64,000 nt of DNA from Thozetella sp. PMI_491 (taxonomy: Eukaryota; Ascomycota; Sordariomycetes; Chaetosphaeriales; Chaetosphaeriaceae): the NCBI GenBank assembly GCA_021432635.1, contig MU270031.1:622118-686117 (forward strand). The letters are read 5' to 3'. Below are positions 11,117 to 60,565 of the stretch, one piece after another (the stretch's first letter is position 1; every line of letters starts with the position of its first letter). Under the pieces are notes generated by a model. That model saw only the letters and a program-made list of their open reading frames with translations. It was not told the origin of the DNA and did no database searches. Made by a program: the position numbers and the translations under genes.

Positions 11117-13790
11117 TCACGACGTCTGAATCTTCAAGGTCTGGACGAGCGGCAGCTTCCTGCTGCTCGATCCAACCGAAAGTGTATAGTCCCCGCTCTG
11201 GAGACTCCATTTTTGCGCTGCCACATCCCACACGCTCAGGTCTCGTCGCGTCAGGTTGAAGCTGATGGTTTGGCTCTCGCCGGCCTTCAGGAAGGGCTTT
11301 TCGAAGCCGCGCAGCTGCCGGATGGGCGTTGAACCGCTGCCACCACCCGGAAGCGTGACGTACAGCTGCGCGACCTCGGCACCGTCAACGGAGCCAGAGT
11401 TGCCTACCGTCGCGGATGCGCTCACCACGACGTCCCACAGGTCCTTCTGTCCTCCCATCTCAACCGGCCCGGAGGGGAACTGTGCAATGGATGCGTTGGG
11501 CTGCTTGGTGACGGCCAGCCCGCTGTAGTTGAAGGTTGTGTAGCTTAGGCCAAAGCCGAACTCGTAACGCGGCTCGATGTTGGCAGCATCGAAGTGGCGG
11601 TAGTCGATGAAGACCCCCTCAGTGAAGTTGCTCTGTGGGAAAAGCGCAAACTGGCCCTCGGGCAGGCTAGGCCCGAGCAGCTTCCCGTAATCGCTTTCAC
11701 TCTTAGCCACCGTATAGGGGAGACGACCGCTGGGGTTTGCGTTTCCGTAGAGGATATCGACGAGCGCCTTGCCAGAGTCCTGGCCCGGGCCATGGGCGAA
11801 GATAATGGCGGTGACATTGGGATGATCGACGAAGGCGTCGACGAGCCGGATTCCGGCGTTGTGAATGACGACAATGGTGCTGTTGCATTTGTTGGCCACG
11901 TTGGTTACCAAGTTGTCCGTATAGCTGTCATGGGTAGTCGACCGATCGTAGCCCTCGCTCGCCCAGGCATTGACGAGCACGATACAAGCCTCGGTGGTCG
12001 GGTTCACGGCTGGGTTTTGGCTATGGAGATCCCAGTAGAGGGCGGTGCCGTCGTCATAGGCCTTGTTCACGAGGGCGTCGAAGGGTGAGACCGCCAGCGA
12101 TGGGGACGAGGCCCCGGAGCCGCCCCCCATGTAGATCGTCCCATTCTGGTACACCTGCATCTGCGAACCGTCCCAGTCAGGAGACAGCGAGCCACCGGTG
12201 TAGGCGTCCGGGTTCTTGGCTGAGTAGCCGAAGATGGACAGCAGCTTAGGAGTCTTGAGCGGGAGTGAGTTATTACTATTCTTCACCAAGACATGGCCTT
12301 CAACGGCGCCTTGAAGAAGGATCGGACGATCATCGGGGTTGCGTGCGTCGACGGCCACGTGTCCTGCCGAATAAGAGGCGGGAAGACCAAACCCAGGGCT
12401 AGGGAAGTCTTTATCCTGGCCCATGAGGTACCAGGAAGCAAGGATTCTGCACAGAGTTAGCTGGCGGCAACGCACATACAGTCGGCGTGTTCACTACGGA
12501 CCTGGTAACCATGTCGTCGATGCGGCTCTCAGATACGGAGCCGTTGTTGACAGCCAGCGTCAGGTTGGCATCCCAGAAGCCAAACGAGGACGGCATCGCC
12601 ATATCCAGACCAGCATTAGCAGTAGCCACGCCAGCGTGCTGGGCCACCCAATCTGAGACGACGAAGCCCTGGAAGCCCAGCTCGGTCTTGAGGAGGCCAT
12701 TAAGCGTCTTGCTGTTGGCGCAGCCATACGAGTTATTGATGCGGTTGTACGAGCACATGATGTTGGCGCTACCGGCTTTGACGGCGTCCTGGAAAGGCCT
12801 GGTGAACGGTCAGCTTCCGCGCTGTAACTCTCAAACGAGGGGATCATCAACGTGTACTCACCAGAGGTACAGCTCGTGCATCGTTCGGTCATCGATGTTA
12901 GCTGACACAGACTGAGCGTTGCCTTCGGGGTTCCGGTTCGTTTCCTGCTCGTTTCCAATATAATGCTTGGTGCTAGTAATGACCCCAGCGCCTTGTATGG
13001 CGGCTACGGTCTCTTGGACAAGGGCGCCAGACAGGTAGGGGTCGACAGAGAAGCCTTCCCAGTTGCGGCCGCTCAGGACAACGCGGCCGACCGGACCGAT
13101 GACGGGGCCTAAGAGAACGTTGGCACCCTTCTTTTTGAACTCGCCGCCCATGCCTGCACCACGCTTGCCAGTGAGATTTTTGTTCCAACTGCGACGCTCT
13201 GTTGTCAGTTCGTGTATCGAGCAAGAGGGGGTGCTTGGGAAGAGTAAACATACCTGGCACCAACATGGATGCCACTCGGCCAGGAGCTGACGAAATCGGT
13301 GCCACGAAGACCGTTCCCAGCATCACTTAGGCATAGACCAGGGAATCCCACACGACTAATGCCAGCAATATAGCCCACGCAGCTGGTGTTGGAACTGGCG
13401 CCGCCGGTTAGAGTCACCTATACAAACGAATTAGCAACCTGGTGGCACATCATCCGGTCCTCTGACTGGCCCTCTGACAACCCTACCTTCTCTTCCAGGG
13501 TCAATTTGGCCACAAGGGCCTGTGCTTTGGCGAATGCCTCCCCCCAGTCGCCGGTGCCGGTCATGTTGGCTACACAATACCTGGTTAGCATACACCAAGG
13601 GCTAGCGGGTTGCAGTGAGCTGGGTCAACATACGAGAGGGATATACCGGCTCCGACTGGCCGTAGAAATATGTGTCACTGGTGATGTTGACACCGGTAGA
13701 AGGGGCTTCGGTGGCCTGGGCATTTGCACCGCTCCCGTGAGGCAAGGCCGCCAGCCCGGCAAGCCCAGCGCCGATGATGACGAGCAGCAT
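11117..13790 (-). CDS. GH3 family beta-glucosidase, N-terminally anchored
   Basis: Six-exon model on the minus strand: 13790-13634, 13569-13487, 13417-13254, 13188-12862, 12798-12502 and 12446-11117, giving 785 residues from the first ATG not followed by an in-frame stop. It hydrolyses terminal beta-glucosyl residues, probably cellobiose or glucan oligosaccharides, outside the cell. GH3 signatures seen are [35 protein letters not shown] and the nucleophile motif GFVVSDW (Asp about 293), then a C-terminal fibronectin-III-like domain beginning near [10 protein letters not shown]. Residues 1-26 ([16 protein letters not shown]...) form a hydrophobic segment that could act as a signal peptide. The open frame continues upstream to an ATG at 13952 through a TGA at 13859-13857 (separate entry). 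The last intron uses a weak GTCCGT donor. Aspergillus-type membrane-bound GH3 enzymes are the closest comparison I know. Confidence 0.88.
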
Positions 13791-13952
13791 GACGACGAGC
13801 GCGGCAACACCTCGCTTAGTCCGGAGGAAGGGGAAGCGTTGCTTAAGGCCGGCTAGTCAACTGGACTTTGCTGGGTCAACGTCTGAGTCCGGGGGGCGGA
13901 TCGAGGCCACAGGGGTGGCTGTGAGGGGGGCACGCTCTTTTAAGCTCGACAT
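13791..13952 (-). other. In-frame upstream extension of the GH3 gene with UGA CUA G
   Basis: Reading upstream of 13790 in the same frame gives an ATG at 13952-13950, 31 codons (starting MSSLKERAPLTATP), a TGA at 13859-13857, then LAGLKQRFPFLRTKRGVAAL running directly into the hydrophobic segment. The hydrophilic tail, basic cluster and membrane span together look like a type II membrane protein. The stop sits in TGA CTA G, the known strong readthrough context. Alternatives are a 57-nt intron (13910-13854, poor GTGGCC donor, CTAG acceptor), an upstream ORF plus initiation at 13790, or a nonsense mutation. Confidence 0.55.
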
Positions 13953-16900
13953 ATTCGCCTTCTGTTTACTGGGCTACTGCCGGAGAGAGAAGCGGGCAAT
14001 CCTGGTTTCTTCCAATGACGTCCAAGTTCGGGTCGAGATGCTCCGGGCTGGGCCAACTTCCTGATTCCTCTCTTCAGTCCGACCTCACACGGGGAGACCA
14101 GAGAGGAGGAGAGGGGTCTCCGAACGGTGAGGAGTCTGTACGTGAAGATGATTCGGGCCTTCTTTGTGGAGATGCGCTACCGCGACTCGCTCGCGCGTGT
14201 ATAGCAGGTCGTTTGTGCGTGCGGAGAAGCTCGCCTTCCTTAGTGGGCCAGCAGCAGGTTGAGATGATGGCAGGCAGACCTAGGAGAGGGGTAGTGGTGG
14301 ATTGGGGAAGCTCTCCCTTCAATGACGACGGTGATGGTGCGGTGGACGGCGGAGATGGCTCGATACGAGCTCGCTCTTCTGGCTGTCTGCCGATTGACGA
14401 TGCCGAGAATTGGGGTAGCAGTGACCCAACAGCCGAGCAAAAGAGAAAAATACGCGTGAGATCGAGAGCAGCGATGGTATGTGTGGTCTTGCTGCCCGGT
14501 GCGGAGCGCGAACGAGGGGATCCGGTTTGGAGTTGTGGATATGGGTAGCACCGAGAGGTTAGATTGCTCTTTGATTTCAGCTGCGCGGGCCGGGTTTTTG
14601 ACACTTGCCCGCGCATAAACTCGCAGACGGGAGACCAGATCAACACTCGGTTGGCTGGGCAGGCGACCGCCACGGCATGGCCCCTGCACTTTCCCGGGGA
14701 AGGCTAGATGCCCATTGGCCCGAGCCTTGCGGGGAGATCTGGGGGAGAGGCGCCCGCACAACCCACCTCCACTGCGAAGCCCACCACATCCCCCGACATC
14801 CCCGGATCAAGTCGCTGTGGTGCCTATGTGCCCATCGGTGGGGAGCTTAAAAACAGGCTAGTCAACCCGGAGAAACACTGCAGCTGATGTGTGAGTGGTC
14901 GGGAAATACATGGGGGATGATTTTTGTGATTTTTCTTTCTTTTTGTCCCTCTCTTTCTTTCCCCCCTTCCTCTAACGGAGACAAGCTGCCGAGAGAGGGC
15001 GGCGTCGATGGTCTCTCCTCCGTTTGTCCTTAAGAATGTGCTGGCAGAGTATTTGCTCCGCCGTCCCACTCTTGGCAGGCGGTCAGAACTGAACCGTAGC
15101 ACCTTAATGCACAAGTACTCTACAGCTGTGATATGTACGCTATCGGCAGTTCCTCGTCCCATAAACTCGGACCCCCGCAGCCGCCAAATAGGAAGATGGA
15201 CCACACATCCGGGTCCATCATCCGGGTTCCCCCATGCTGGGACTCCCACTCCCTCCCGCTGCCTCCATTATACAACTAGATTAGATGGAGTCGTCCCGTT
15301 TTCAGATCTCAGATTGCCGAGGGCCAGGCAGCGTGGGCTGAGACATGGGCCTCGGGTGTGTGGCGCATGGCCAGCAGATACCGCATAGGGAATCAATTGA
15401 GACCTGCTAACTTGTGAAGAAGCTCGAGGCTGTCAACAGCATAGTCCTGTTTCATGGAAATGCCTAGGATCCCTGGTTTAGCAACTGCCGGCTAGCACCA
15501 CGTGGGAGCCACCAACGTCCGGCTTCTGCTGTGGGGTTCTCTGGATCTCGCCGAGAGAGACGCCGCTGTGCATCCCCCGCCGCCGTTTGGTACGATGGGC
15601 ACCTATCTCCTGTTGATCGTACTCGTATTAGAGCCCTGCAAACATTTTCACTGTTCATTTCCTCGCTCATTGCCGGCCTTTCGTCAAACGAGTTGCCTGG
15701 CGTCATCTGAACCCACCTCATCGTGGATCTTCCGCCTTGGCTACCACTGCCCCCTTCAAACCTGCCTCTGGCGCCTCTTCATGCGCTTTGCGGCTTTTAT
15801 GGCATCATGGCCCCGTTCCTTACCGGAAGCGAACCTCGGCATGGTACCCCATGAACCCAATAGCGGCTAGCATCGAGATAAATGAGAAGGCGTGCGAGAT
15901 AGTATCACCATCTAGACCTGAGCGTAACGGCGATTAGGGTGAGTATCACGTTGTCACCTTAGACCAACACCGTAACGGGCAATAGTTTTACCGAGACAAG
16001 TCACATTTCACCCCCCCTACAAAATAGAAGACTCGCCCTTTCCGCAGCTCTCCTATAGCCAAGAATGTTCACCCTATGACTTACAGCTTACCTTTAGCTA
16101 TCGTGGACATCACGGAATCTTGGGCCACGATGCAACGACGCCGAGGCTTTCAGGGCGTGCAACGCGAGCAGCTATGTAATGTATCATCGCGCTTCCATCC
16201 TCGACGATGGACCAATGCGATGTCTACACCTATACTTGCTGATGGCCAAGAAAAATAGAAGAAATTGAGTTAATGGCTTCTCGCTGTCCGTGTGGTCGCC
16301 TCTCCCAGAGAACATACGGGCTATGAGAGAGCCAGTTTACGCAACAGGCTCTATCGCACAAAATGTGACGTATGTGTGTTAATTATATTTGTTAGATCAT
16401 CCCTCCAGCCTCCTCATCATCATAGCATGATATCTATCTATGCCGGGCTCGCTAGGAGGGGACAGGGCGTTGACATGCTCATGTTCGTCAATCATCCTCC
16501 TCCTCACGCGGCTGAACTAGCTTACACCTTTTACAAAGGCAATCTTCCGGTCCTTCCTTCCATGTTCATGAGTCCTATTCTTCTGCCGCGGGGCCCCCAG
16601 GCCGCTCGTTTCTCCAAGATCCAAGTTGAGCAGGAGAGCGGGAACGCTGAAGGACTAGATCTCTTTAGGTGGTGTGGGGCGCCGAGAATGAATGCGTGGC
16701 AAATCCGCCTGCTGTCCGCTTGCAAGTCAGTCAGCCAGCCAGCCTGGTGCTAGCGGCTCAATCTTCTGTGTCCGGGTATGAAATGCGCAGCAGTGCCAGC
16801 GGTTGTTGGTTCCCACAGCGGGGACTGGAATGCCTCGTGCCCGAGGCACCAATAACAAATATAGACAATAGGATGCGAATCGAGTAGATAATATACAAGG

Positions 16901-27291: not shown

Positions 27292-29975
27292 ATGAATTGG
27301 ACCGAGGGCAACCTGGCTCGCCATTCTCGCGGCAAACTCACTGCCAAAATGGCGACGCTTTTGCGCCAGAAGAAACATTTCGCAAGGGCCCGATCAGGGC
27401 TGTGGAACTCAGCCGCGAGACATAGACCACCTTCGCTCATCGGTCCAAGCTCACCCCCCCACGTTAGACCACAACGCCCATCACTAGATGGCCAAGTTCT
27501 GTCCCCTTCTGCTAGGAAACGGCGGAAGCTAGACTCTGCCGTTGAACCATCGAGTGGCGAGTCAACCTCACTGCCGACGGTGAGCCGCTACTTTCGGCAC
27601 AGAAACGGCGGAGAACCGCTCGCAGGACACGCCAATCACTCTATTGAGGACGACTCCAGCAGCCTGAAGGAAAAACGACGCCGCCTCCTCATGACGGATG
27701 ACTGGGTTGGGGTAAAGACGCAGAGGCCGATGCCCCCCTTTGCCTTCACTGTCACGTCGCCCGGTCGAAGAATATGGAGCAAACGTCGCTACCAACCCAG
27801 TCCCAAGCCACGGCATATATTAGGTGGCCATTTGGATGATATCAGAAACGGTCAGGACCGTCAAGAATTCCCCAGCCTGCGGCATATTCGCATTCAGGTT
27901 GGAAGCCAAGAGAAGCGCCTAGGTGAAGGCTCCAACAAATCCAGCATCATCAGAAGAGCAACTCCGGCACCACTTCTGGGCGACCTCGATTTATCCAGCT
28001 CTTACCTTCCGAGTTCTAGCTGTAAGTAATGCTGTTGCATCGTTTTGGGGCCGGCACTGATCAATTGCATAAAGCGGTTGCGAAGTCTGTCGAACAAGAA
28101 GAAATTGGGATGGAACCTGCATACCAGCCCAGTCCCTCCAGCAGCGTCGATTCTACTCGGGAGCTTAGCTTAAGCGACCATCACAGACACATATTGTCAT
28201 CTTCTCCACTGATCATTCAGCCCGTCCCCCAACGCATCATGCGAACCGAAATGATTCGGGTCCGATCCGCAGAATCGGAGGTCGCATCTAGTACCTTAGC
28301 CCAGGTCGGCGCGCGATACTCTCCCGTACCACCGTCCCAAAAAGACGAGAATGAAGCCTGGAGGGCCTGGGTTCGGCCATCTAGCAGTCTAACCTTTGCT
28401 AATGACTCCTCCACCGATGGGCACGGTATTAGTCCTGGAATAAGTGAGTTACCCCGGAACAGCTTGGCCGGGACCCATGGACAGCATGGACGAGCGAAAG
28501 CCATCCATAGAGCGGTACCTAGTTGTAGTTCTCCAGATCCCTCTAATGGGTCGAGACACTCTCCAGATCGCGATCCTCTAGATGTTGGCTCCAAGTCCAC
28601 AGAGATTCGGTCCGACATTGGGAGCTCTGACAGCCCATACGACGGCCACGGGGCGAGCAACGACAGAATGTGTAGGTCTCCAGAAAGCCGCAAGAGTCAA
28701 AAATTAGCCGACAACGAGGATCGATGCCATTCTCCTGAGAGGCCCGCTAACGTGTTTGAGGTCTTCGGGGGTCAAAAGCTGTCCAAAACAATACAGGACC
28801 TATTAGACGAATTCCGGAGGGACCATACCAAGGCTCTATCCATAGCGGAGGCGTCTCAATACCGAATTCCAGGTGTTTCCGAACTATACGACTCGCAGAC
28901 AAGTCATATTGGTCCCTTCCCAACGGTGTTCTTAGATGGCTCTGGTTCTGTAGTTGACTTCAACAAAACAAATGTAGGGGTCGATGTTATTAGAAACCTA
29001 GGCAACCACACCGAGATCGGTGCCATTGCTCCTGAGAAAGGCCCCGAGGCTGCGCTTGGGGAAAAGCAGCAGAAGATCTTACTTGACCAACCTCCTGGAC
29101 TTACGCGTAGTCCGAGTAACAACATCGCGCACGAAGTCCCGGGTCCTGACGACGATCCTGATGAGGCGTGGAAGAAGTTTGTTTTCGCCGATGATTCCAG
29201 TGATACAATGGAGACCACTGCATTTGAGGAAGCAAGGCGGGAAGCTGCAAGGTTCCTAAGGCCGTCTAGTCCCGACGTGACTGCGTGGGGGGGCAGCAGT
29301 ACTGTCGGCGGAGCTCGGGATACTTTGGCCATTGGTTCGACTCGAGAAAGCTCCGACATGGAGCTCTCAGATTCTTGCGACACGGGCCCTGCAGATGTGG
29401 ATGCGTCACTGAGCCTACGAGCAACTATTGGGTCGCCGAGCTGCGCCTTCGAATCTAGCCCAGCCCTTGATGACAGGCTGGGCGATGACCCCCGCGTTAC
29501 ATGGGCCAACATGGGTCCAAGTACTGCTACGAATGCAGGAACAGCGGATCTGGAGGACGAACACCCCAGTAGTGACGCCCCAATATCAACGACCGCACAC
29601 TTGGGAGCCAGCGACCCCATTGAAGTGCTTTCAGAACTAGTATCGCTGCCCTCCATGATCGTTGAGCCCCCGCGATCCCCAGTGGGGGCCAACAGTTCGA
29701 TGGGCGGAGAAAAGGGGCCTCAGAAATTCTCACGGCCTAAGTTGTTCGTGGGAAGTAAATCTAACTCGACACCATCCAAGGCGTCGATCTCACTTTCAAG
29801 CTCTGTGAAAGTCCCGAGGAACCGGGGCCGACGAGGACGACCGAGCAAGAAGGCGCGGGAGGGGCGCCTGGACATCCAAGCGCTTCCGAACTACAAAGAC
29901 GATCCTATCGAAGACTTTCGGGAGGATGAGAGTGGTAGCTACCCTGGCCTCTTCGGGAGCCTCGAGATGGAGTGA
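27292..29975 (+). CDS. Unknown protein with AT-hook-like motif
   Basis: Two exons, 27292-28021 and 28075-29975, joined by a 53-nt GTAAGT...AAAG intron that keeps frame, giving 876 residues. I do not recognise a family. The N-terminal 100 residues are basic (RQKKHFARARSG, ARKRRKLD), which suggests a nuclear localisation signal. Most of the rest is Ser/Pro/Asp-rich and probably disordered. A tryptophan motif occurs twice: NEAWRAWVRPSSSLTF at about 334 and DEAWKKFVFADDSSD at about 603. Near the C-terminus (about 827-836) RGRRGRPSKK fits an AT-hook that binds the minor groove of AT-rich DNA. A chromatin or DNA-repair scaffold is a guess. The gene is divergent from the omega-amidase gene. Confidence 0.75.
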
Positions 29976-45068: not shown

Positions 45069-48000
45069 CTAGGCGTGGCGGTAGGTGCACCGGTCGCCCT
45101 TCGCGCACTTGCCCTTGAGCCAGAACGAGCATTGCTTCGTTCCAACCTTGCTTGGATTGACGGCGCGAGAGGGTTCCGAGTCTTCGCCCTCGTCGGTTCC
45201 GGCAGCGCCGCCGCTGCCGCGGTTGCGACGACCGCCGTGGCTGCGGTTTTGGCCGCGGCCCGTGCTGGCAGCTTGCTGCCCGTGACCAGCGTGCCCGCCA
45301 TAGCCTTCGGCGGATCCTCCGCGCATCATACCGCTGCTTGCAACGGCAGGTGCCGCCTGGTGCGTTCCCAGCTGCAGCTGAGCCAGCACTGCCTGCACGC
45401 CAGCATTCTGCTGCTGTTGCTGCTGCTGCATTTGCTGCTGCTGTTGTTGCTGCTGCAGTTGCTGTTGTTGCTCCTGCTCTTGTTGCTGCCGCAGTTGCTG
45501 TTGCTCCTGCTGCTGCTGGTAAAAGGCTCCGGCTGCCTGTGGGTTCTCTTGCCAGTACCGCACCCATGCTGCCGCATGATCCTCCCGGCTAGGCTGGGCT
45601 TGAGCCTGCTCAGCTTGCAGGACCGCTGCTCTAGCTGCTTCCTCCATTGCTTTTGCCTGGGCCTGAGCCTGTGCCTTTGCCTCAGTCTCGGCGTGAGCCT
45701 GCGACCGGATCTCCGCGATCACCCGGTTTTGCATCTCCAGAGGACGGTCCCTATTAAACTGCGCGACAAAGTTCTCTAGGGTATCGGCCGATTTCTGGAC
45801 CTCCGGGTTGGCGTAATCGTGGCGGCGCTGCGTTGTGGCCTTGGCTGGGTCATATGGATCGTTGACCGAATAGGGAAGCGAAGATTTGGGAATGCTGTTC
45901 CACGGGATGTTGGTCAACATGTCAGCCACTGCATTCCCACGAGCCATTTCCATGCCTGAGGCATTCCAGTCCACGGCCATCATCTTCTGTAGATAGGCCG
46001 AAAGATTGTTCGCGTCGATCGGACGGCGGTCGGGGTCGGCCGCTGTAGCCGTGGTAGGCGCTTGGGGTGGTGGATGGGCTGTCACAGGGGTGGGCTGGGT
46101 TGGACGCTCAGCGGGCAGTGCCATATTCTGGTTCTGACGGATGACAGCGTCCACCTTCTCCATCACGTTCTGATAGTCACCGAACACGGGATTAGCTTGC
46201 CGGTGTAGTGCGTGCTCGGCGGCCTTGCGGAGACCCTGCTGCTGAAAGTCCTTGTGGCGACGATGCATCTCATCGAGTAGGGGTGCGCCGGTGGGCAAGG
46301 GCCATTGTTCGGGCTGTTGGGTCGAGGCAGGACCGCTGGAGGCAAGAGTCGGGGACTTGGGCGTGGGAGGGATGTCCTCCTTGGAGGTGTAAACAACGGA
46401 GAGCACCTTGCTGTCGCGGTCCTCCATGAAAGCCTGCTCGGCTGTTCGGAACTGCTTGGGCCCGCCGCGGGTGGTATATGCTTCGCCTCGTGCGGCTGTC
46501 GCCAGTGAGCTGGGGAAGTCGATGGGAATCAGATCCTCGTAGGAGCGGATGTTGCTGAGATGACTCTCTCTGAGGGCTCTGCCTTCGTCCGTCTTGCTCT
46601 CCGAGTTGTCGATTCCCCAGGTCATAAAGTCACCCGGCTCTTCGTCTTCATGCCGCTCGAACTCGCGGACCTCGACCAGGCGATCGTCGCTTTTGAAGGT
46701 CACGCGCAAATTCTGTCGGCGGCGCTCTTCTTTGCGGAGACGGCGTTTCTTTTCTTCCTCCGTTTCCTCTTTAGCGGGATCGGCTGGCAGCACGGGGCCG
46801 CGACGCGTCTCAGTCTTCGGGTCGTTGATCTCATCCAGGAGCGATGCAAACTTGGATTTGCCGGAAGGCGGAGGCGCCGGCGCCTTTTTGACAACCGGCG
46901 GTTTGTTGCCCGTCAACGAAGACGATGTAGAGGACGAACCGGCGGCAGGCTTTGAGCCTGGTTTGGTAATCTCTAGTTTAGAGAAGTCCATCTTGGGCGC
47001 GGGCTCGGGCTTGACGGCTGGCTTTGGAGGATCGGAGGTTGGTGAGTCGGTTCTGGGCGCCGGTTTGACTGGTGCTCGCTTTCCTGGTAGCACTCCAGCT
47101 GCCGGCTTGGCTGTCGCCGTGGACGAGGTTGCGGGCGACTTCTTCACTGCCAGTTTAGCCGCCAGCGAAGTGGACGAGGATCTGGCAGCAGCCGGGGCTG
47201 GCTTGGTGGCGGCGGGACCGGATAGCGCAGGGGAGGAAGAAGATTTGGTGGCCCCAGTCGCTAGCTTCTTAGACGTACGTACTTCGGCGTCCTCCTCGCG
47301 AGGACGTTTCGTAGCGGAAGCTGATCGAACAGCACCGGTGGTGCCATCCGACTTCTTGCTTGGGCTGCCAGTCTTGGCACCCTTTTGATCAGCGGGCTTT
47401 GCAATTTGGCGGGGGGAGCCGTCTTTGTCCTTGTTTTTCTCAACCATTGCGAGAAGGTCGTCCAGCAGCTGGTTGACTTCGTCGTCGCCCCTTTCGCGGA
47501 GGAGCTTTACCTTAGCGCCCTCGAGTTTGTATTTTCCCTCGAGAAGGAATGGGGTGAGAGTGGTGAATCGACAAAGCAGCTTGAGAATTGTCTTGGCTAG
47601 CGATGAGTTGCCCTCGTCTTGGTTATTAAGATTCACGAGAACGTTGAGTACCGCTGTGGTGACAAGATTTTCGGAGCCCAGCCGTTGCAGGAAAGTGGAG
47701 TCTGGGAGATCGAGGCCGTATTTAATGATTCTCCGCAACTTATCGCTCGGTTCGCGCAGCTGCTCCCGCATCTTGGCGATGCCATCTCCTTTAACCGACT
47801 GAGGGTCCTTCTTCCGCATCCTCACAGCGTTCTTAAGTTCTGAATAGGCGGGGGTTTCCTTGAGGATAGTCACGGCACCTCGGATCCGAGCGGAGTAGTC
47901 GTCGAGCACCTTCTTCACGTACTCGGCGTGGTTGTTCAGAGCCGGGGGCAGAAACAGTTCAGCCTCGATTACCATATCCTCAGTCGCGGGTGGCTCCACC

Positions 48001-49787
48001 CGTCGGTAGTCTGGCTTGCTGTCGTTGTTCTTCGCCGACTGGTCGACCATGACGCGCATTAGCCATAGGCAGCCTTCCAGGAGGAAATAAGCGAGAACAC
48101 TTACGTAGGTTTCCCATCCCGGAATCTCACGCTTCTTGCCTTCTCCGGGAATAGCCCTCGAGTACCAATCCTTTGGGCGCTCGTTTACTTTCATTGGAAG
48201 AATAAGAGTTAGTACTAGCTGCCGCGGGTGGATGGCGAGGAGGCGGAAAATACCTTTATTAATCCGACGCAGTTCTACGTCTAAGAGTGCGTCTGCTTGC
48301 CGGCGAACATGGTCGTGTTCGGGATTGGGCGGGTCTTTCAAGTAGGCCTCGAGGTGCCGACCCAACACCTCGGCCAGCATCGGACCGCTAGGTAGCTTCT
48401 TGTACAGAGACTGGTCACCCTTCAAGACAGTTGTCGTGTATCTCATTGCAGGTCGAACAAGCTGCACCTCTGTATCTCCCATGACAAGATTGGCAACACC
48501 TGGCCAAATGAGGCCAAGGGCTTTGGCATCCTCTCGAAGCTTAGATTCCTCACGGAGGGTGGGGCGATCAGCCTCATTGGCGTTCGAAGGCGCAAAGTTT
48601 GGGATGCCGGCTACCGCGGTAGCTGAGCCCGACGCAACTGCCGATGTGTCTCCCACGCCCGGGTTAGGAGCAGCTACCGGGTGCGCTAGAGGAGTTGCTG
48701 CAGGAACAGAGGCGGGTCGAGCTACCGGGGGAGGGATGGGAGCAGGAATGGACGAGGTGGCGGGCACAGATCCAGCCTGCTTTCTTGTGGCAGCGATGCG
48801 TTGCAAATTGGCCTCGTTTGAAACACTATCAGGTGCGTGGGCTACGTGTGTCTGAGAAGGGGCATATTGAGTGGTTTGTTGTTTCTGGAAGGTTTGCTGC
48901 TGGAGCGGCTGCTGCTGGAGCGGCTGCTGCTGGATGGGCTGCTGCTGTTGCTGTTGAGCAAGCTGCGGCTGTATAGGTTGCTGCTGCTGGTGCTGTTGTT
49001 GAGCAAGCTGCTGCTGAATGGGCTGTTGCTGCTGCTGTTGAGCAAGCGGCTGCTGAGGTGGCTGCTTCTGAAGTGGCTGCTTCTGAAGAGCTTGCTGCTG
49101 GAGCGGCTGTTGGTGGATAGAGTGATGTTGGTGAAGGGAAGGCTGCTGGAGAGCCTGTTGATGCATGGCTTGCTGTTGGACTGGCTGACGCTGCAGAGCT
49201 TGGTGCTGGAAGGCCTGCTGCTGGAGAGCCTGCTGCTGCGGATGCGGCGGCGAGTGCTGTTGCTGCGCCGGCTGGTGCGCATTGATGCCATACCCATACC
49301 CGTTGGCCTGTTGCGACGCCGGGTTGCCAGGAACTTGGTTCGGAGCTGCCGCAGGTTCTGAGGGGACGAAATGGGCTTGCTGAGCATATGGCGACGGCGA
49401 CAATGTGTGGTTCGCCGCGAGCGGATTGCTATAATGGCTCGGTGAAGAATAGCCGTTCTGTGCTGGCTGGTACGACTGCCATGTTGTCGGCGTCGCTTGG
49501 GCCTGGGGTGCCGCATATGAGGCCCTCTGGTCGGGGGCATAGCCGAAGCTACCGATAGGGTTCTGGTGACCGGCATAGTAGTCATCCTGCTGCTGAGGCC
49601 AGCCTTGGGCGGCCGGGAGCGAATCCGGTTGCTGACCATAGAGACCGTCAAAGTCCGGGTATTGGCTCGCCTCCTGGGAAGTGAAGCTTAGGTCTCCTGC
49701 ATCGAACTGCTCGGCTGACCACTGCGCTGGGAACTGGCTTGGATCCCATCCGCCAGGGTTGCCAACGCCGTCCAGGTTCTCCGCCAT
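45069..49787 (-). CDS. PNUTS-like PP1 regulatory subunit, polyQ-rich, CCCH zinc finger
   Basis: Two coding exons, 49787-48254 and 48187-45069, split by a 66-nt intron (GTATTT donor, TACTAAC branch point, AAAG acceptor) that is in frame. The spliced protein is 1550 residues; the unspliced frame has 1572. Domain order matches PNUTS/Ppn1: a helical region at about 670-760 (DSTFLQRLGSENLVTTAVLN...KLLRER) resembling the TFIIS N-terminal fold, a PP1-docking RVTF at about 1007 followed by DDRLVEVREFERHEDEEPGD, and a C-terminal CCCH finger, CSFWLKGKCAKGDRCTYRH. PNUTS brings PP1 to the cleavage-polyadenylation machinery and RNA polymerase II at termination. Two polyglutamine blocks flank the core, and the segment before RVTF is Ser/Pro/Ala/Lys-rich. 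No paralogue is seen here. Confidence 0.82.
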   Translation of the reverse strand: MAENLDGVGNPGGWDPSQFPAQWSAEQFDAGDLSFTSQEASQYPDFDGLYGQQPDSLPAAQGWPQQQDDYYAGHQNPIGSFGYAPDQRASYAAPQAQATPTTWQSYQPAQNGYSSPSHYSNPLAANHTLSPSPYAQQAHFVPSEPAAAPNQVPGNPASQQANGYGYGINAHQPAQQQHSPPHPQQQALQQQAFQHQALQRQPVQQQAMHQQALQQPSLHQHHSIHQQPLQQQALQKQPLQKQPPQQPLAQQQQQQPIQQQLAQQQHQQQQPIQPQLAQQQQQQPIQQQPLQQQPLQQQTFQKQQTTQYAPSQTHVAHAPDSVSNEANLQRIAATRKQAGSVPATSSIPAPIPPPVARPASVPAATPLAHPVAAPNPGVGDTSAVASGSATAVAGIPNFAPSNANEADRPTLREESKLREDAKALGLIWPGVANLVMGDTEVQLVRPAMRYTTTVLKGDQSLYKKLPSGPMLAEVLGRHLEAYLKDPPNPEHDHVRRQADALLDVELRRINKGIFRLLAIHPRQLVLTLILPMKVNERPKDWYSRAIPGEGKKREIPGWETYVSVLAYFLLEGCLWLMRVMVDQSAKNNDSKPDYRRVEPPATEDMVIEAELFLPPALNNHAEYVKKVLDDYSARIRGAVTILKETPAYSELKNAVRMRKKDPQSVKGDGIAKMREQLREPSDKLRRIIKYGLDLPDSTFLQRLGSENLVTTAVLNVLVNLNNQDEGNSSLAKTILKLLCRFTTLTPFLLEGKYKLEGAKVKLLRERGDDEVNQLLDDLLAMVEKNKDKDGSPRQIAKPADQKGAKTGSPSKKSDGTTGAVRSASATKRPREEDAEVRTSKKLATGATKSSSSPALSGPAATKPAPAAARSSSTSLAAKLAVKKSPATSSTATAKPAAGVLPGKRAPVKPAPRTDSPTSDPPKPAVKPEPAPKMDFSKLEITKPGSKPAAGSSSTSSSLTGNKPPVVKKAPAPPPSGKSKFASLLDEINDPKTETRRGPVLPADPAKEETEEEKKRRLRKEERRRQNLRVTFKSDDRLVEVREFERHEDEEPGDFMTWGIDNSESKTDEGRALRESHLSNIRSYEDLIPIDFPSSLATAARGEAYTTRGGPKQFRTAEQAFMEDRDSKVLSVVYTSKEDIPPTPKSPTLASSGPASTQQPEQWPLPTGAPLLDEMHRRHKDFQQQGLRKAAEHALHRQANPVFGDYQNVMEKVDAVIRQNQNMALPAERPTQPTPVTAHPPPQAPTTATAADPDRRPIDANNLSAYLQKMMAVDWNASGMEMARGNAVADMLTNIPWNSIPKSSLPYSVNDPYDPAKATTQRRHDYANPEVQKSADTLENFVAQFNRDRPLEMQNRVIAEIRSQAHAETEAKAQAQAQAKAMEEAARAAVLQAEQAQAQPSREDHAAAWVRYWQENPQAAGAFYQQQQEQQQLRQQQEQEQQQQLQQQQQQQQMQQQQQQQNAGVQAVLAQLQLGTHQAAPAVASSGMMRGGSAEGYGGHAGHGQQAASTGRGQNRSHGGRRNRGSGGAAGTDEGEDSEPSRAVNPSKVGTKQCSFWLKGKCAKGDRCTYRHA
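45409..45521. repeat. C-terminal polyglutamine-coding tract
   Basis: A CAG/CAA-rich stretch on the minus strand, encoding long Q runs with interspersed R, E, L and M in the PNUTS-like protein just before the glycine-rich tail and zinc finger. Confidence 0.9.
48893..49260. repeat. N-terminal glutamine-rich repeat tract
   Basis: About 120 codons of imperfect units of the form QQQ-P/A-L/I/F in the PNUTS-like protein. The units vary by single residues (QQQALQKQPLQKQ and similar), indicating local duplication and slippage. Confidence 0.85.
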
Positions 49788-51084
49788 CAGGGGTAGTCCT
49801 GGCTGGAGTCACGTGGCTGGAGGGTGGTGTTAATGGGAGGCAAAGGATGAAGATACGGATAGATGCATATTGTGACAGAGATACGTACCAAAAGGCTCCC
49901 AAAGCTGCTGGAAAGGAGGTTACCGAGGTGAGGGTTCAAAGGGGACAGCAAATATGAAAGAATTATCCCGAAAGGAGAACAAGAGGCTTTCTCTAGCCCA
50001 ATCGGGGGCTATGAGGCCTTCCTCACACAATCTGGTGATGGAAGGCTGTCGTGGCTGTGGTTTGGTGATGATCCGGAGATGAACCGGATATAAAAATTTT
50101 CGGTGGAGGAGAGATTAAATTATCGGGACATGAATTTAACCGAATCTTTTGTGGGTCCTCTGTTCAGAGAACTTGGTCTGTGCACAGAAGCCTAAGCAGG
50201 GAATGAGCTATGCCTAACAGGGCTAGTGCATTTGAGTCTAAGACGGAGAGAATCAGCATTTAGCAAGTCGAAAGCTGCAGCAGCCGTGACAGAAGAATTC
50301 CAGTGCGACACAACACAGTCTCCCCGGGCACCTCGTGCCCGAAGGGAGAGAAAGAGTTCCTGGGAGAGCAGCAGCAAGCAGGAAGAGCAAAAAGGCCATT
50401 GGGCTTTGGGGCCATGGACATGGATGGGTTTGGTGTGGGCGGATCGGGGCGAGTGCTGCTTCAGTTTTGGTGGTGTTGCGGGGCATGCAACAGGTCGATC
50501 TGTCACTAACACAGCCCAAACAGGGTGTCTTGGGTGCTGTGAAGTGCAGGTTTGTTGGAGTTCGACGGAGGCCTGGGATCCAGTGTCGGACGGTTTGAGC
50601 AGACGAGCTTGAGACAGGCGAATCAAATTGCTGTATCCTTGATTCCTTGATGGACAGAAGATATTGCATTGACTCCCTTTGATTTTGGCGGCAGGCTTTT
50701 CCCACTTGGTAGGTGTGTTCGACTCCCGTGAGCCTTGTGCGTGTCCCCAGAGAGAGCGCTGGTGTAGTGGAGGGGGGCCAGCACCGGGCGCTGCTGGGTT
50801 CAGGGGGCGTCGGAGGGGGAGCTGCTGCACAGGCTGTCGCCAATCTGGCAGTTTGACTGGTCCCGCTCCTCTTCCGCCCGCCCAACCTTGCCCCGTCCTG
50901 GCCTGCCTGCATTGCCACACGCCATCTCTCCGAGGATGCGACAGACTGGGCTCTCAGGGAACAAATTAATCCTGCCAGACTGACTGCAAAAATGCCCGTC
51001 GCCTTGATATCTCGTCCATGACGGCATGGCATTTAGGCCATTATTCATTTTGCTGACCACCTGTGCTCCCGAGTCTGCCCTGGG

Positions 51085-55126: not shown

Positions 55127-58100
55127 ATGTCATATAATCGCCTAGGTTCGTTCCATCCCTTTGCCATCCCTGACCTTCGACATCATCACTCCTTCTCCTC
55201 GCTCCCTCCCCTCCCTCCCCTCCACACCCCGTCTCCCGTCCCCATCCGTGACCTACCCTCTTCCATCCCAACCCTCCACCAACAGTCACCACCTACCCTG
55301 CATTCCTTCTTCGAGGCGAGCCCCTCTTCTTCTTCTTCCCCAGATCCCCTCTCGTCGGTTCCTTCCTTTCTCAGCCAACAAAGGCGTCGGGCGCGAAGAG
55401 GACCAAAGGATACCTTGTTGCCAGGAGCAAGCAAGCAAGCAAAGCAGGACTCCATCGCATCCTACCTTTCGCTCGCGAACTGGCATCGCACTCGTTTTGC
55501 GACACCCCCTAATTAAGCTTCTTCTAATCACTACCGTCTGTAGACGACGACTACTACGACAATCGTCGCCCCATGGACAACCGCATGCACCGGACGCCCT
55601 CCCCGGGCCACCCTCTCCAGCATGGGTACCAGCTCGATGATAACCCGTACGGCCATTCCCAGGGAAACCTCGAGATCCCGATGGGCCCCGGCCCCGGACG
55701 AGTTCCCAGCCCGGGCGACTCTCTACACATGCAGACAGCGGTATGCTTCCACCTAACGACCCAGTGGCGACCTCGAGGCTAACCGCGTCGAACAGCAATC
55801 CGTCGAGAACTTTCAGGGCGGTCACGCATACGACCCTGGATACCACCCCGGCGCCGGCGGAGACTACGCTGTCAACCCGGAGCAGCATCACGATGCGTAC
55901 TACAACCAACCGTACGAGACCAACCCGGCCGACGGCCACCCCTTTAGCGACCAGCACGGCTACGACTACGATGACCGGCGGCCCATGCTGACCCATACCG
56001 ACTCGAAAGTCGGACAAACGGACGCATACCATGACGAACCCCACCAGGCGCAGCAGCAGCAAGGCGGCGGGATTAAGCGGTGGAAGACGGTGAAGCAGGT
56101 CCTGCTGTACCGCGGAAACTTGGTACTGGATTGCCCAATCCCGCCCAAGCTTCTCAACCAGATCCCGCACGGTGAGCGCGATGAGTTCACACACATGCGC
56201 TACACCGCTGCGACCTGCGACCCCTCCGACTTCTATGGCGAGAACTTCACGCTCCGGCAGAAGCTCTTCAGTAAATCCCGCCAGACGGAGCTCTTCATCG
56301 TCATTACCATGTACAACGAAGACGAGATCCTGTTCGCCCGGACCATGATCGGTGTTCTGAAGAACGTCGAGTACATGTGCAAGCGAAACGAGAGCAAGAC
56401 CTGGGGCAAGGACGCATGGAAAAAGATCGTTGTATGTGTCGTCAGCGACGGCCGCGCCAAGATCAACCCTCGGACTAAGGCGCTGCTGGCTGGTATGGGT
56501 GTCTACCAGGAGGGTATCGCCAAGCAGCAGGTCAACGGCAAGGACGTTACAGCCCACATTTACGAGTACACGACTCAGATCGGCTTGACAATCAAGAACG
56601 ACACGGTCCAGCTCACCACGGCCAAGCAGCAGCCTGTCCAGATGCTCTTCTGCCTCAAGGAGAAGAACCAGAAGAAGATCAATTCGCATCGCTGGTTCTT
56701 CCAGGCGTTCGGTCGTGTCCTTGATCCCAACATCTGCGTCCTCATTGACGCCGGTACCAAGCCTGGCAACAACTCCATCTACCACCTCTGGAAGGCCTTC
56801 GACCTCGAGCCCATGTGCGCTGGTGCGTGCGGTGAAATCAAGGCCATGTTGGGAACGGGTGGCAAGAACCTTGTCAATCCACTGGTTGCGACTCAGAACT
56901 TCGAGTACAAGATGAGCAACATCCTCGACAAGCCGCTCGAGTCGGCCTTTGGCTTCATCTCTGTGTTGCCCGGTGCTTTCTCTGCCTACCGTTACGTCGC
57001 CCTACAGAACGACAAGAACGGCCAAGGCCCACTTGAGAAGTACTTCGCGGGTGAGAAGCTCGAGGGTGCCGGCGCTGGTATCTTCACCGCCAACATGTAC
57101 CTGGCCGAGGATCGTATCCTCTGCTTCGAGCTTGTCACCAAGCGCAACTGCCACTGGATCTTGCAATACGTCAAGTCGGCCACCGGTGAGACTGATGTGC
57201 CCGACACCGTCACGGAACTGATTCTCCAGCGTCGTCGCTGGCTGAACGGTTCTTTCTTCGCTGCCATCTATGCCATCGCCCATTTCCACCAGTTCTTCCG
57301 CTCTGACCACTCCATCATCCGCAAGTTCTTCTTCTTCATCGAGTTCATCTTCAACACAGTCAACATGATCTTCGCCTGGTTTGCCATCGGTAACTTCTTC
57401 TTGGTCTTCAAGATCCTGACTACGAGTCTTGGCACCGACAACCTGCTTGGAAACGTTGGCACCATTCTCGGCGTCGTTTTCGAGTGGCTGTACGGTATCT
57501 CCCTGATGACCTGCTTCGTTCTGTCCATGGGCAATCGTCCATCTGGTTCCGGGCCCTGGTACACCGCCATGGTCTTCTTCTGGGCTATCATCTTTGTGTA
57601 CGTTGTCCAAACTCCTTTCCCTACATTCACGGAGCCGCGAAAACTAATGCCATTTCTAGGTACCTCATGTTTGCCGCCATCTACATTGCTGTCATTGCCA
57701 TCAAGACCGATCTCGAGAAGGGCTTCCAGATCAGCGACTTGTTCAAGAACCAGGTCTTCTACACGCTGATAGTGTCGGTCTTATCGACCTATGGCATCTG
57801 GCTGATCGCCTCGCTGCTCATGTTCGACCCCTGGCACATGATCACTTCGCTCGTCCAGTACATGCTTTTGTCGCCGACCTACACCAACGTCCTCAACGTT
57901 TATGCCTTCTGCAACACGCACGATATTTCGTGGGGTACCAAGGGCGACGACAAGGCTGCAGCTCTGCCATCCGTCAAGACGACTGACGGTAAGGGCAAGA
58001 CTGACCTACCGGACGAGGGCGACCTGAACGCCCAGTACGAGCGTGAACTCCAGGTCTTCGCCCGCAAGCCGGTCAAGGAAGTTAAGGCCCCGAGCGAGGC

Positions 58101-59219: not shown

Positions 59220-60565
59220 TTACTTCTTAGATCCCCTGCTCTGAGCAACAGCAGCAGCGGCCATTTCGTCATCGATGAGCGCCTGGATATCTCTTTCGGC
59301 TTGCCACTCCCTCACGCTCTCGATCATCTTGTCGAGGCTCTCGCCGCCGGCTACCACCCCATCGATGTCGTGAGTCTCGAAGCCGGTCCGGTGGTCGGTG
59401 ACCCGGATCTGCTGGAACTGGTATGTCCGGATCTTGTCTCCGCGGGTGACTTGCGACTTGGCTAGTACGCTGCTCCGCAGGTTCCGCGCCGTCTCTTCGC
59501 GCTCCTCCCGGCGCTTCTGCCCGATGCGCGACCGCAGCAGCCGCCACGCGTCGGCGCGATTCCGCGTCTGCGACCGCGAGTCCTGCATGCTGACCGTGAT
59601 GCCAGTCGGCACGTGGGTCAAACGGATGGCCGACTCGGTCTTGTTGACGTGCTGGCCGCCAGCGCCACGCGCGCGCATCGTCTCGCTGCGCACGTCGGCC
59701 GGGTTGATGTAGAAGTCGCTCTCGGGGTCCTCGTGGTCTTCCTCCTCCATCGAGCTCTCGGGGAACGAAGGCAGCACCCACACAGCGACAGCGCTCGTGT
59801 GCGTGCGGCCCATCTTCTCCGTCGCCGGCACCCGCTGCACACGGTGCATGCCGGCTTCGCCGCGGAACAGGCCGTATGCGCCCGTGTCCTCCACCTCGAG
59901 CACGGCCTCCTGCAGCGCAACCTCACCCATGGATCCGGACTCCCCCGAGCTGTCCGACTTCTCGTACTTGACCACACGCATACGGTATCCCTTATACGAG
60001 CAGTACTTCTGGTACATTTGCACCAAGGAGTCTGCGAAGAAGCGCCCTTCCATGCCGCCGGGGCCGGGCCGGATTTCGAGCAGGCAGGGCATGCCGGCGA
60101 AAGGATGCTTGGGCGTCAGGGCGACGGACAAATTCTTAGCCAGGGTCTCCAGCTGGGCATTGGTCTCTTCGAGGTCGTCGCTGGCGAGTTCGCGCAGCTC
60201 GGCATCTTCGGACTGGAGGAGGCCCCGGAGCTCAGCGAGAGAGGCGTTGGCGGCGTCCCATTGCTTGAAGGCGTCGGCGACGCGCGCAATCTCGCCGATG
60301 CGCTTTCCCCGTTTGGCGTCGAAGTCGTCGGCGTTCGCAGCACTCAATTGCGCGTGCTCCTCGGAAATGTTGCGCGCGCGCTCTAGCAAAACCGGCGGGA
60401 GAGAGGACGCTGTAGCTGTAGGTCAGTACAATCTTGGGATTCAAGAACGGCAGAGGGCGGCGGTGGTGGGAACGAACCGGCTCTAGCTTGCCGCGAGAAT
60501 TGAATGAGAGGACGGCGTGTGGCTGCCCGCAGGCAGCTACGACACACCCATGGTGCCGCAAACAT
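59220..60565 (-). CDS. Mitochondrial peptide chain release factor 1
   Basis: Two exons, 60565-60478 and 60409-59220, giving 425 residues. It releases the finished peptide at UAA/UAG in mitochondrial ribosomes. The catalytic GGQ is in RARGAGGQHVNKTESAIR (G280-G281-Q282), where the glutamine is normally methylated. The codon-recognition region reads HRVQRVPATEKMGRTHTS. The first exon, MFAAPWVCRSCLRAATRR, is a typical mitochondrial presequence and is joined by a 68-nt intron that keeps frame. An acidic insertion (ESSMEEEDHEDPESD) precedes the GGQ domain. Divergent from the tryptophanyl-tRNA synthetase gene, with 431 bp between start codons. Confidence 0.92.

Follow-up and report, generated by a model that had tools for sequence, protein, structure and literature searches.

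A possibly leaky UGA CUA G stop codon ahead of the hydrophobic segment of a GH3 beta-glucosidase in Thozetella sp. PMI_491

In the 64,000-nucleotide stretch of DNA analyzed here (the window), the minus-strand reading frame of a putative GH3 beta-glucosidase is broken by one TGA, at 13859-13857, which is followed directly by CTAG (13856-13853). The account that we favor, with a probability of roughly 0.4, is that this UGA CUA G is leaky, so that the gene would yield a minor membrane-anchored beta-glucosidase beside a secreted form begun at AUG 13790. That readthrough at UGA CUA G is programmed, and decides at the N-terminus and in the secretory pathway whether the enzyme from one mRNA is anchored or secreted, is a proposal that we make more tentatively. 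Three other accounts, brought in below with the evidence that bears on them, are an allele carrying a nonsense mutation, an ordinary start at ATG 13790, and removal or change of the TGA in RNA; the likelihoods attached to all four are judgements rather than computed values and concern one genome.

Results

Gene structure and genomic setting

Reading and translation of the minus strand gave an enzyme frame that starts with ATG 13952, continues for 31 codons to the TGA and resumes with the CTAG, which bears out the earlier sequence-only reading that the frame is open back to this ATG but for a single stop. The local stops in the frame are TGA at 14087, TAG at 13976 and TGA at 13859, and the next, at 13604, falls within intron 1. 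With the five inferred GT-AG introns (13633-13570, 13486-13418, 13253-13189, 12861-12799 and 12501-12447, minus strand) spliced out, 840 codons extend from ATG 13952 to the end, the terminal stop counted, and the TGA is the sole internal stop. The same splicing from the alternative start at ATG 13790 gives a product of 785 amino acids in which PF00933, PF01915 and PF14310 all score above their cut-offs, in order and with the frame intact. When this product was compared with PDB sequences, 77 distinct matches were obtained at E up to 0.001, the best being 6jxg (1.7e-175). The part of the gene downstream of the TGA thus encodes, as judged from its Pfam domains and intact frame rather than from a residue-by-residue comparison of the catalytic site, a whole GH3 beta-glucosidase of putative activity, whose body occupies 13724-11117. 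Ahead of this body, ATG 13790 and the remainder of a hydrophobic stretch (13790-13725) can be translated in two ways: the stretch resembles a signal peptide if the start is 13790, and a membrane anchor if it is read from 13952.

The gene structure fits the filamentous ascomycete host proposed from the sequence at the outset. The assembly that contains the window comprises 72.3 Mb in 157 contigs and holds no close second copy of the gene, the seven other matches being 40 to 378 nt long with 66-90% identity. The 87 N-terminal residues had just one other match in the genome (E 0.23), and a pattern scan of the genome-contig and viral-contig collections for relatives returned 23 and 1 matches, respectively, none of which was confirmed. 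Other genes in the window include a chitin synthase (55757-57766, plus strand) and a possibly organellar peptide chain release factor of the RF-1/PCRF family (59223-60422, minus strand). The only matches in a 1579-codon open frame (45072-49808, minus strand) are weak ones to CCCH zinc fingers at its end, none of which reaches the cut-off, and a 649-codon open frame (28026-29972, plus strand) has no Pfam match at E up to 0.001.

Sequence context of the stop codon

The complete stop context is TGA CTA GCC. As in functional readthrough genes of the UGA CUA(G) type, UGA is followed by CUA, and here by the preferred CUA G. When every TGA in the window was considered, on both strands and in any frame, CTA followed 20 and CTAG followed 3 of 1656. 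An ATG-started ORF of at least 25 codons, closed by the first in-frame stop upstream of an ATG, was found ahead of 160 of the 1088 window ATGs, and ATG 13790 was the only one of the 1088 at which that stop was TGACTA.

The available passages of two papers document the claim, made in the sequence-only reading, that UGA CUA (G) is a context of high readthrough: the three nucleotides CUA behind UGA were enough to bring about readthrough in Ustilago maydis, activity of UGA CU(A) was seen in HeLa cells, and a G at +4 was remarked on for many of the genes (PMC4207609), while the high-readthrough motif is given as UGA CUA G elsewhere (PMC12233894). Passages of the latter also link U at -1 of the stop to lower readthrough in mammalian cells (PMC12233894). 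The base at -1 of the TGA at 13859 is U, which we count against readthrough. We likewise count against it that no notable stable RNA structure was found 3′ of the TGA in the 84 nt from the stop, where a structural stimulator was rejected on a z of -0.38. Nor do GAPDH and PGK, the two genes that served as the positive-control check, give any sign that the species uses TGACTA, because neither ends with it in this genome (TGA ATA and TAG, respectively).

The rarity of the context also bears on the account in which the gene normally has a sense codon here and encodes a type II membrane enzyme, the TGA reflects a recent substitution in the sequenced strain or an error in the assembly, and CTA G is accidental. 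We consider this account rather unlikely. It agrees with a single stop in an otherwise open N-terminus and with the translated appearance of the 22 codons between the TGA and ATG 13790; the genome moreover has no close second copy that could display another allele, so the assembly does not offer one. Against it, the CTA codon is rare (0.75% in 27 long open stretches from GH3 loci) and so is CTAG after TGA, by the count given above, and because of this rarity the CTA G context would have to be a coincidence. Mutation by RIP, which targets CpA, would be expected to yield TAA or TAG as well. The RIP ratios over the gene are ordinary (TA/AT 0.81; second ratio 1.15), and those over the 162 nt of 13952-13791 (2.0 and 0.89) rest on 4 TA versus 2 AT; these values are nominally RIP-like by the usual thresholds.

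Coding character on either side of the TGA

The ORF upstream of the TGA, MSSLKERAPLTATPVASIRPPDSDVDPAKSS (13952-13860, minus strand), possibly encodes the cytosolic tail of a candidate protein. Its codon score is weak, at -0.085 bit per codon (shuffle p 0.09), which places it near the 5th percentile of 556 coding windows; this weak coding signal is counted against readthrough. The codon training set consisted of 27 open stretches of at least 450 codons from GH3 loci, two of which overlap others in frame; these are open frames and not individually confirmed genes. The leader ahead of the ORF has a clearer property: in the 663 nt of 14615-13953 there is no ATG on the sense strand and there are 13 on the opposite strand. 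Dinucleotide shuffles of the leader (2000) contained 5.2 ATGs on average, and the share with none was 0.0035. Because these 663 upstream bases lack a sense-strand ATG, they fit the idea that 13952 is the first AUG that scanning ribosomes would meet.

The 22 codons downstream of the TGA, LAGLKQRFPFLRTKRGVAALVV (13856-13791, minus strand), comprise a basic cluster followed by the start of the hydrophobic segment, with a net charge of +5 over the first 15 residues and a mean hydropathy of 2.8 over the last seven. These two values were reached jointly in 0.00027 of 7469 dinucleotide shuffles of the segment that were free of stops, in 0 of 12122 stop-free windows of the shuffled leader and, among 32733 stop-free stretches sampled across the window, in 0.00006. 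The figures are descriptive, since the observed segment itself supplied the thresholds. Among the 1043 ATGs on both strands of the window that are preceded by 22 stop-free codons, 13790 alone has both properties, and an earlier share of 0.0023 of ATG draws consisted of this same ATG drawn repeatedly. That the charge and hydropathy test was devised after the sequence had been seen is counted against the readthrough reading. The codon score of the segment is 0.133 (shuffle p 0.018). On synonymous use alone, 0.19 of stop-free leader windows score at least as high as the 22 codons and 0.44 at least as high as the tail, so that synonymous codon use sets neither apart from leader DNA, which is again counted against readthrough. 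A search of papers found no match to the string LKQRFPFLR. Initiation at a non-AUG codon between the TGA and 13790 was rejected, as just two in-frame codons there, both AAG, differ from ATG by a single base.

On balance, the 22 codons look like the basic flank and membrane segment of a type II protein; as in known readthrough genes, the in-frame sequence after the stop is protein-like and carries a targeting signal or domain, and we infer that it is translated. The type II N-terminus proposed in the sequence-only reading accordingly stands in its basic and hydrophobic part and is weakened by the poor coding signal of the tail and by the secreted appearance of the clade to which the gene belongs.

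These observations can be set against an ordinary secreted enzyme that starts at ATG 13790, for which the TGA would be simply the first upstream in-frame stop, the peptide-like look of the 22 codons a product of chance, and the 31-codon ORF an upstream ORF or part of an intron in the 5′ leader. An ORF before a start is common, at the 160 of 1088 already given, and the synonymous codon use of the 22 codons is not separable from that of leader DNA. A TTGAC branch-like site, noted by eye, lies ahead of CAG 13862 with a spacing that resembles that of other introns, and donors in the leader score up to 1.9; a leader intron may therefore remove ATG 13952 and leave the start at 13790. On the other hand, a basic cluster with a hydrophobic extension is rare in non-coding sequence, the signal peptide would have zero residues between the methionine and the hydrophobic core, and the segment is similar to that of a type II paralogue, described next. 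We hold an ordinary start to be improbable.

GH3 paralogues

The GH3 family is large in this genome, with at least 49 exon-level and at least 74 protein-level matches, the former to PF00933. Among the 13 paralogue N-termini that were read, one on contig C44 (134-136 kb) is, by eye, a clear type II form and is uninterrupted. Under readthrough, the gene studied here would have the same layout, with a cytosolic tail, basic residues and one membrane segment ahead of the GH3 body. The C44 paralogue differs from it in having no interruption and a longer tail, and it sits on a different branch of the tree. An ungapped alignment of its segment LNGQKPRWSIKR with the codons that follow the TGA scores 44. 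This score was reached by 0.005 of 2000 segment-wise shuffles, an optimistic figure because C44 had been chosen for the tblastn match reaching furthest into the N-terminus, and by 0.01 with the tail added. The Aspergillus bglE type is a further type II membrane GH3 beta-glucosidase resembling the form proposed for this gene.

In a tree of 17 GH3 proteins over 690 columns, the gene groups with the paralogues on contigs C3, C9 and C34 with a support of 0.997, its pairing with C34 having just 0.39, while C44 groups with C39 in another branch, also at 0.997. Judged by eye, C9, C34 and C3 begin with ordinary signal peptides, unlike the gene, and belong with the PDB matches 6jxg, 4iib and 3zyz to the secreted members of the family that it shares; C9 also has the same intron 1 position. 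The distance from the signal-peptide start to a conserved YGxS-like motif is 26 to 33 residues in C9, C34 and C3 versus 40 from ATG 13790. Because this clade begins with signal peptides, a start at 13790, whose signal-peptide-like beginning had been pointed out in the initial reading, stays credible. Because the clade looks secreted and C44 lies elsewhere, the resemblance to C44 may reflect convergence or chance, or else an ancient common N-terminus that the others have lost, and a secreted ancestor of the clade is favored. In our estimate, the evidence from the clade against a membrane form and that from the C44 alignment in its favor roughly balance.

Two further features of the paralogues were observed. 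In the C3 paralogue (L048, 900-1560), the frame upstream of the signal-peptide-like start MKPSTFF... is open for more than 100 codons, with other ATGs, and contains a hydrophobic run, MHGRRDKEAIEPP...CKVLLLLAASSLSLLFF. It may represent an unrecognized longer form or a CT-rich leader that mimics one, and its alignment to the segment after the TGA did not exceed chance (0.27). Stops also interrupt several of the exon-level GH3 matches in L044/L061 on contig C39 and in further paralogues, one TAA on C39 being an example; these are probably introns read through by the search.

Splicing and RNA editing

A 57-nt in-frame intron with its donor in the tail had been suggested as another explanation of the stop, and was rejected: GT 13910 to AG 13853 spans 58 nt and shifts the frame. 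On paper, eight in-frame GT-AG pairs from four donors would remove the TGA, such as 13933-13853 (81 nt) and 13910-13842 (69 nt), with two of the eight spanning just 9 and 39 nt. The six GT sites in 13952-13860 have donor scores of only -4.9 to -7.8, and in a leave-one-out comparison 25 of 26 introns from GH3 genes of this genome scored above the best of them; the set comprised 21 introns from paralogues, found automatically and some of them doubtful, and the gene's own 5. An in-frame intron with a donor inside the tail was rejected on these scores, as none of the donors there resembles the ones used by other GH3 introns of the genome. A first exon from ATG 14616 joined at 13853 would also be in frame on paper, and was rejected as not coding-like, since its score of -0.287 bit per codon is lower than that of any of 87 coding windows.

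A-to-I editing, by which filamentous ascomycetes correct premature stops, favors U at -1 and hairpin loops, according to passages of PMC11156358. The A of the TGA at 13859 instead follows G and was paired with a probability of 0.68, 0.94 and 0.97 in three local folds, and editing of the UGA was rejected, as it has neither preferred feature. Premature-stop-correction genes of the Fusarium graminearum PUK1 type share with this gene an in-frame stop in an otherwise open frame; in the source passages, their stops are UAG with U at -1, as opposed to the UGA found here. Removal or change of the TGA in RNA, through a non-consensus in-frame intron or through editing in sexual tissue, is accordingly the account to which we give very little credence.

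Discussion

We propose that ribosomes would initiate at AUG 13952, translate 31 codons and in most cases terminate at the UGA. A small share of them would decode the UGA as sense because CUA G comes next, and would go on to translate the basic cluster, then the membrane segment and finally the GH3 domain; their product, of low abundance, would be a beta-glucosidase anchored in the membrane in type II orientation, with a short tail in the cytosol. AUG 13790 would be available to ribosomes that reinitiate or that pass over AUG 13952, and these would produce the secreted form with its signal-peptide-like start. In favor of readthrough we count the rarity of CTAG, the shape of the 22 codons, the C44 alignment, the ATG-free leader and the poor donors of the tail; to the points counted against it above is added the clade of the gene, in which C3, C9 and C34 look secreted and from which the type II C44 stands apart.

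In U. maydis tpi1 and pgk1 and in human MDH1 and LDHB, UGA is likewise followed by CU(A), as far as the source passages go (PMC10688622 among them), and the gene described here would, like these, place one enzyme at two sites. In the fungal cases and in MDH1 and LDHB, as those passages have it, a short C-terminal peroxisomal signal is added after a complete enzyme, whereas here the stop would lie close to the 5′ end, with almost all of the enzyme downstream. Control of membrane anchoring by readthrough at the N-terminus would be a new use of a known mechanism, to the extent of a limited literature search and with earlier cases in print possible. If the proposal is true, the use of the motif extends beyond C-terminal peroxisomal signals to the N-terminus and to membrane anchoring, and gene models that take the next ATG as the start can overlook one form of the protein.
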